Positions 50,269 through 50,389 of a stretch of DNA of 64,000 bases are shown in pieces. The translations under genes and the position numbers were made by a program. Under the pieces are notes generated by a model. It was not told where the DNA came from, made no database searches, and saw nothing but the letters and a program-made list of their open reading frames with translations. The DNA is from an uncultured Algibacter sp. (GTDB lineage Bacteria; Bacteroidota; Bacteroidia; Flavobacteriales; Flavobacteriaceae). Each line of letters begins with the position of its first letter. Positions within the stretch are counted from its first letter, which is position 1. The stretch is taken from the NCBI GenBank assembly GCA_947502405.1, contig CANMZT010000004.1, positions 266,006 to 330,005 on the forward strand, given 5' to 3'.

Positions 50269-50389
50269 GGCGGATAGATGCGTTAGGGATTGAAGTGGAT
50301 AGCCCACAGCCTGACGAAGGAAGTGCGAGGACTTGGAACGGAAAGCCCGACCTAGGCCCTGAACTAAATTCAGGGTATAGGTAACGCCC
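50269..50389 (+). repeat. structured intergenic repeat family, copy D
   Basis: GGCGGATAGATGCGTTAGGGATTGAAGTGGATAGCCCACAGCCTGAC...GAAAGCCCGACCTAGGCCCTGAACTAAATTCAGGGTATAGGTAACGCCC. Confidence 0.85.

Follow-up and report, generated by a model that had tools for sequence, protein, structure and literature searches.

The 64,000-nucleotide stretch of uncultured Algibacter DNA analysed here (the window) carries five copies of a short, structured repeat, all of which had been recognised in a first-pass annotation of its letters. Copy D, the element under study (positions 50266-50392, plus strand), lies 3' of a copper P-type ATPase gene and 5' of a cbb3-type oxidase gene, as assigned by Pfam matches. 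Copy A (12921-13026), another example of this three-way-junction Flavo-1 element, is flanked by divergent genes for a sigma-70-like factor and an RsmB/F-like methyltransferase (Pfam); the annotation had placed it correctly and given no strand, and it lies on the minus strand. The remaining copies are on the plus strand: B at 16983-17100, C at 22944-23050 between a GmrSD-like and a purL-like gene (Pfam), and E at 55631-55729, downstream of a FixG/CcoG-like gene. Scored with R1, a covariance model trained on 42 copies, they reach 103.8 (A), 56.6 (B), 101.8 (C), 97 (D) and 53.1 bits (E), a range of 53-104 bits with E-values of 3e-10 to 1e-22 for copies that were themselves in the model's training set.

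The count of five holds for the window and falls far short of the genome. The source assembly (3.79 Mb in 81 contigs) yields 40 matches to a DNA search with copy D, and 149 of the 150 candidates scored with R1 are matches, giving at least 149 copies of an intergenic element about 110-150 bp long. R1 matches were found in 57 of 100 relatives and in 43 of the 78 genera searched within the order, and in the source's own genus copy numbers exceed the maximum number of candidates scored with R1. A 30-nt core is also present, letter for letter, in Flavobacterium, Lutibacter, Mucilaginibacter, Limnovirga, Bacteroides finegoldii and one Bacteroides fragilis plasmid, and in most of the distant taxa a full R1 match confirms the same junction. 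The neighbours there are unrelated housekeeping genes, except for a serine resolvase beside the copy carried by one B. fragilis plasmid. Similar sequence was found in 72 plasmid records, all from Bacteroidales, while a search of phages for the element gave no match. On the conjugative Bacteroides plasmid NZ_CP018939.1, a complete copy comes directly after a serine resolvase stop codon (L434:4995-5088), and on the likewise conjugative plasmid p5482 a complete copy lies inside an annotated 'hypothetical protein' (L433:1899-1995).

From comparison of the copies, the full unit is a predicted three-way junction composed of a closing stem P1, an arm P2 and a hairpin P3. Its elements follow the order 5' box RGCRGAT, P1 (GCGTTA/TAACGC), P2 base (GGGaTT/AAgCCC), a GNA/GNA internal loop, 2 bp, a second internal loop, a variable tip, GA, the P3 CC..GG hairpin and CCAAA. 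Copy D begins with the unpaired 5' box TTTGGCGGATAGAT (50266-50279), which shows position-specific conservation, followed by the P1 strand GCGTTA (50280-50285), whose partner TAACGC closes the junction at 50382-50387; P1 is supported by covariation. The base of P2, GGGATT (50286-50291) and AAGCCC (50343-50348), is supported both by covariation and by retention in orthologues, and it stays with the site. Between its strands lies the exchangeable arm (50292-50342), running from the first GNA/GNA loop to the tip and back and delimited by the retention boundary in orthologue pairs with swapped arms. The P3 hairpin CCTAGGCCCTGAACTAAATTCAGGGTATAGG (50351-50381) shows covariation and length variation. 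A further paired outer stem, UUUGG/CCAAA (helix 1), was considered and is unsupported, being 61% paired in the covariation test. In source-genome copies, weak AT-rich conservation (approximately TTTTGGTTTTAAAACTGACTTTRGCRGAT) is seen 24-36 nt upstream of the 5' box, which suggests that the element may reach further 5' than R1 models.

Covariation strongly supports this fold. In 42 copies, 15 of 25 pairs show changes on both sides, compared with 4.7 (sd 1.6) in shuffles, none of 500 of which reached the observed count, and with 3-8 in slid registers; the covariation score over the same copies is 0.145 against 0.056 in shuffles, with sliding controls far lower. A 30-sequence set with one match per genome, mostly from other species or genera, gives 14 both-sided pairs versus 5.8 and a score of 0.278 versus 0.073, in an alignment that was fitted to the model and so leans towards the proposed structure. 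The GNA/GNA internal loops are conserved as well, the first in 102 and the second in 68 of 123 copies. The first-pass annotation had proposed selection on an RNA or single-stranded DNA fold, and both alignments bear the fold out. Its description of the closing stem, with GCGTTA/TAACGC in C and D, a G-U pair in B and GCATTA/.AATGC in E, agrees with ours, as does its CCC/GGG versus CCTA/TAGG forms of the 3' hairpin when read copy by copy. It had interpreted the differences among copies as compensatory changes; the covariation is real, but much of the difference is exchange of the inner arm rather than point substitution. What it had taken for a shared core, CCCGAC..AGGAGG..GAGGACTTG, belongs to a single arm type and is absent as such from copies B and E, with copy B carrying the rare TTTGTTGAAGCTC...GCGACTGCCG type.

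A relationship to Flavo-1 (RF01705; Weinberg et al. 2010, PMC2864571), regarded since 2010 as a probable RNA with no function assigned, had also been suspected, and the two prove to be homologous. At the gathering score of 42 bits, an Rfam scan gave no match in the window; in E-value mode, RF01705 matches every copy tested, one of them in the window, from end to end (1-76 of 76), mostly short of gathering, with 27-33 bits (27.2 for copy D). Across the source genome, copies of the type found here score up to 41 bits, while gathering is reached by 37 others; in copies A, C and D the arm is of the 'AGCCCACAG...CGAGGACTT' type, which spans 27-41 bits. Seen together with their flanks, most of the canonical Flavo-1 copies in the source genome lie inside a GCGTTA...CCCGACC..GG..TAACGCC frame, with the same P1 and P3, and those with that frame match R1 end to end. 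Canonical arms and arms of the type found here occupy the same frame at orthologous sites. Because most canonical copies share the outer frame and the full R1 match, the Rfam family covers only the inner arm P2, and the repeat, judged by these alignments, is the apparent complete form of a known motif without an assigned function. Three loci, L007 (1658-1801), L160 and L161, have the canonical arm in a different, weaker frame (TTAGCCCC...GGGAAATAGCTTCTAA or TTAGCCCC...GCGGGAAATAGCTTCTAA) without the GCGTTA/TAACGC stem.

Arms and frames appear to have separate histories within the source genome. Each copy was split into 5' box, P1, P2, P3 and tail, the parser failing on a few copies, and in 48 copy pairs with P2 at least 95% identical, agreement in P1, P3 and 5' box does not exceed that of permuted labels (p 0.86, 0.63 and 0.70). 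Copy B and a second locus (L234) are 99% identical in P2 and differ in P1 (GTGTTA versus GCGTGA) as well as in P3; copy E has an identical P2 (100%) at another locus (L214), with P1 GCATTA versus GCGTTA; and copy D shares 98% of its P2 with a locus (L011) whose P3 is unrelated.

Orthologous sites were compared in up to five related species, one genome each and hence between species rather than strains, for 14 P1-marked sites of the source genome and five sites of the window region. With three mis-parsed copies left out, the arm middle is less than 60% identical in 38 of 94 orthologue pairs, and an earlier cut (whole arm less than 65% identical) gave 40 of 102; the sites were partly picked for rare P1 variants, and these rates should not be read as averages over the genome. 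Of the 38 swapped-arm pairs, 24 (63%) have the same P1, versus 248 of 2051 non-orthologue pairs (12%; Fisher 4e-13, a value that overstates independence in that pairs within one site share history). Pairs 24-106 and 29-101 are also retained in swapped orthologues, and retention ends where the first GNA/GNA loop begins.

Individual sites illustrate the pattern. Site F has P1 GGGTTA/TAACCC with three different arms in three species, and is empty in the source genome and in the relatives G006 and G009. At site L195, GCGCAA/TTGCGC and the P3 CCCTTGGG are common to the source genome, G006 and G007, the source genome having one arm type and the two relatives another. Site L035 keeps GGGTTA and AGG/CCT while the tip differs, with the same long P3 in the source genome and G006. 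Orthologues of site E are filled in G006, G007 and G008, each with a different arm from copy E; site A is filled in G006 and G008 and empty in G007 and G009. Five other species have a copy at site D, either intact or decayed; most of the arm is missing from two of these copies, in G006 via a deletion between AGCCC repeats, so the copy at this site decays freely. Arm-less frames number only three in 11 genomes, all derived by internal deletion. This near absence rules out insertion of arms into empty frames and implies that exchange means replacement. These sequence comparisons show that a site holds on to its P1, P2 base, P3 and 5' box over long periods while the inner arm, or the tip only, is replaced by that of another member; frame and arm evolve separately, with their border at the first internal loop.

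One explanation of the repeat is a structured RNA, either a trans-acting sRNA or a UTR element, that was amplified to many loci, with selection at the transcript level maintaining its fold. The strong covariation in both alignments and the listing of Flavo-1 in Rfam as a gene/sRNA family would fit such a molecule, as would the finding that in Flavobacterium psychrophilum some Flavo-1 matches coincide with structured 5' transcribed regions (PMC9723704). The same study (Guerin et al. 2021) found matches sense or antisense to transcribed regions alike, many of them outside such regions, and no clear clue to expression of Flavo-1 as RNA. Our own counts show no orientation bias: by ORF-based gene calls, made with no gene finder, the 118 copies with callable neighbours comprise 34 sense and 33 antisense co-directional, 28 convergent and 23 divergent cases. 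A sense bias in the first 42 copies (17:5 among co-directional cases) vanished at 118, and two apparently intragenic copies sit at ORF ends, where they are probably start-codon overcalls. Among 1720 cells of P1, P2 base and P3 in 123 copies there are 8 G.U and 9 A.C; adding pairs 33 and 34 gives 17:10, with a slight G.U excess left at pair 34-96, and across genera the ratio is 1:10. SRP RNA from 29 related genomes, counted in the same way, has 70 G.U and 1 A.C, and the repeat differs from it with Fisher values of 5e-6 and 6e-11. A selected RNA tolerates G.U but not A.C, so that a G.U count barely above A.C argues against RNA. Folding predictions point the same way by a moderate gap: P1 plus P2 base is predicted to form with more than 50% probability in 50 of 123 copies as sense-strand DNA, 33 as RNA and 4 as antisense DNA, although P1 alone comes out slightly more probable with RNA parameters. 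Decayed copies kept at site D in two species also count against a selected transcript. Taken together these lines, none of them proof, favour an element that works at the DNA level, narrowing the 'RNA or ssDNA' of the first-pass annotation towards DNA, and we consider a structured RNA unlikely.

The covariation could alternatively be unselected, if quasipalindrome template switching during replication copied one strand of a stem onto the other and produced perfect complements in one step. Double changes lacking G.U intermediates and strand asymmetry are what such a process would leave, but it would also erase the mismatched GNA/GNA loops conserved in 102 and 68 of 123 copies, and it does not import a foreign arm type; this explanation seems very improbable. 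Mobility of the whole element, as a MITE- or REPIN-like miniature transposon served by a transposase in trans, would turn the arm differences into repeated insertion or replacement of entire copies. High copy number, intergenic placement, presence and absence at orthologous sites A and F, and 30-nt cores that recur unchanged in distant Bacteroidota and on plasmids of Bacteroides all suit a mobile element, and spread of whole elements probably did found the sites. As an account of the exchanges it is quite unlikely: compensated, site-specific P1 variants outlive arm replacement, arm identity does not predict P1, P3 or 5' box, and no target duplication can be defined, flanks of related species being too diverged. 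Nor was a Y1/RAYT partner gene found: the source genome has one embedded Y1-like match, G005 and G007 have none, and the loci examined around relatives' Y1 genes hold a single weak element match ending at the locus edge. The embedded Y1/IS200-like domain (L009:1501-1803, equal to G000:C22:30159-30461) is part of a 1274-aa frame resembling an adenine-specific methyltransferase/restriction protein, and G001-G004 too have long fused frames (1074-1302 aa).

We therefore favour, with moderate confidence, a REP-like, non-autonomous intergenic repeat that most likely forms a three-way junction in single-stranded DNA and evolves by ectopic conversion of its hairpin arm. During replication the extruded arm would break, be processed or cause stalling at its tip or close to it, and would then be repaired by annealing to, and synthesis from, an ectopic template, another of the approximately 150 copies. 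The sole homology for annealing would be the shared stem segments GGGATTG and AAAGCCCGACC, and an RNA product would not be required. The mechanism is what we infer; the separation of arm and frame itself comes from sequence comparison. Homology at the arm borders is only about 10-16 nt, and classical RecA recombination uses longer homology, which counts against the proposal. Rather more speculatively, a dedicated or structure-triggered recombination process of Bacteroidota might swap hairpin arms with borders at the GNA/GNA loops, making the arms mobile cassettes in fixed chromosomal frames; we regard this as possible but doubtful. If the element does act as DNA, sRNA annotation of Flavobacteriia that relies on Rfam would have to be revised at more than 100 loci in such genomes. 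Exchange of arms between frames would also be a clean record, left by nature, of recombination at hairpins over very short homology, marked by the site-specific compensated stems.

Several known systems share some of these features. A cis-regulatory RNA or riboswitch would form sense leaders of related genes, and the 118 copies are unbiased in orientation with unrelated neighbours. The core sites of integron attC follow the order RYYYAAC ... GTTRRRY; by motif comparison the present element reads GTTA...TAAC, the reverse order. As to MITEs, the partial outer repeat TTTGGC..CGCCCAAA corresponds to the weakly supported helix 1 (61% paired), and empty sites are too diverged for a duplication to be recognised. 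The repeat resembles REP/BIME and REPIN elements of Enterobacteria and Pseudomonas, with their RAYT transposases, in being short, palindromic, intergenic, high-copy and mosaic and, probably, in acting at the DNA level. It differs from them in its length of about 110-150 bp, its three-way junction and an arm swapped inside a fixed frame: no GTAG/CGTC tag marks the base of a 20-40 bp palindrome, the ends being RGCRGAT plus P1 and CGCCCAAA, and, unlike REPINs with RAYT, no RAYT association and no Y1 gene flanked by copies was found in the genomes and Y1 loci searched. CGTC REPs are also known without a dedicated transposase (PMC3733652). This CGTC-tagged family, which includes Bacteroidetes, is represented by CGTCATTGCGAG-like palindromes in the same genomes as the present element. 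Palindromes of this kind (CGTCATTGCGAGG...) occur inside the apical loops of long Flavo-1 arms at L173, L178 and L179 of the source genome and at L065 of G014; they are a separate repeat nested in the present element and not equal to it. The closest relative is Rfam Flavo-1, found in the same genomes with the same P2 arm and the conserved GAUUG...AAAGC with the same internal loops, and to that arm the present element adds P1 and P3, which together would enclose it in a three-way junction.
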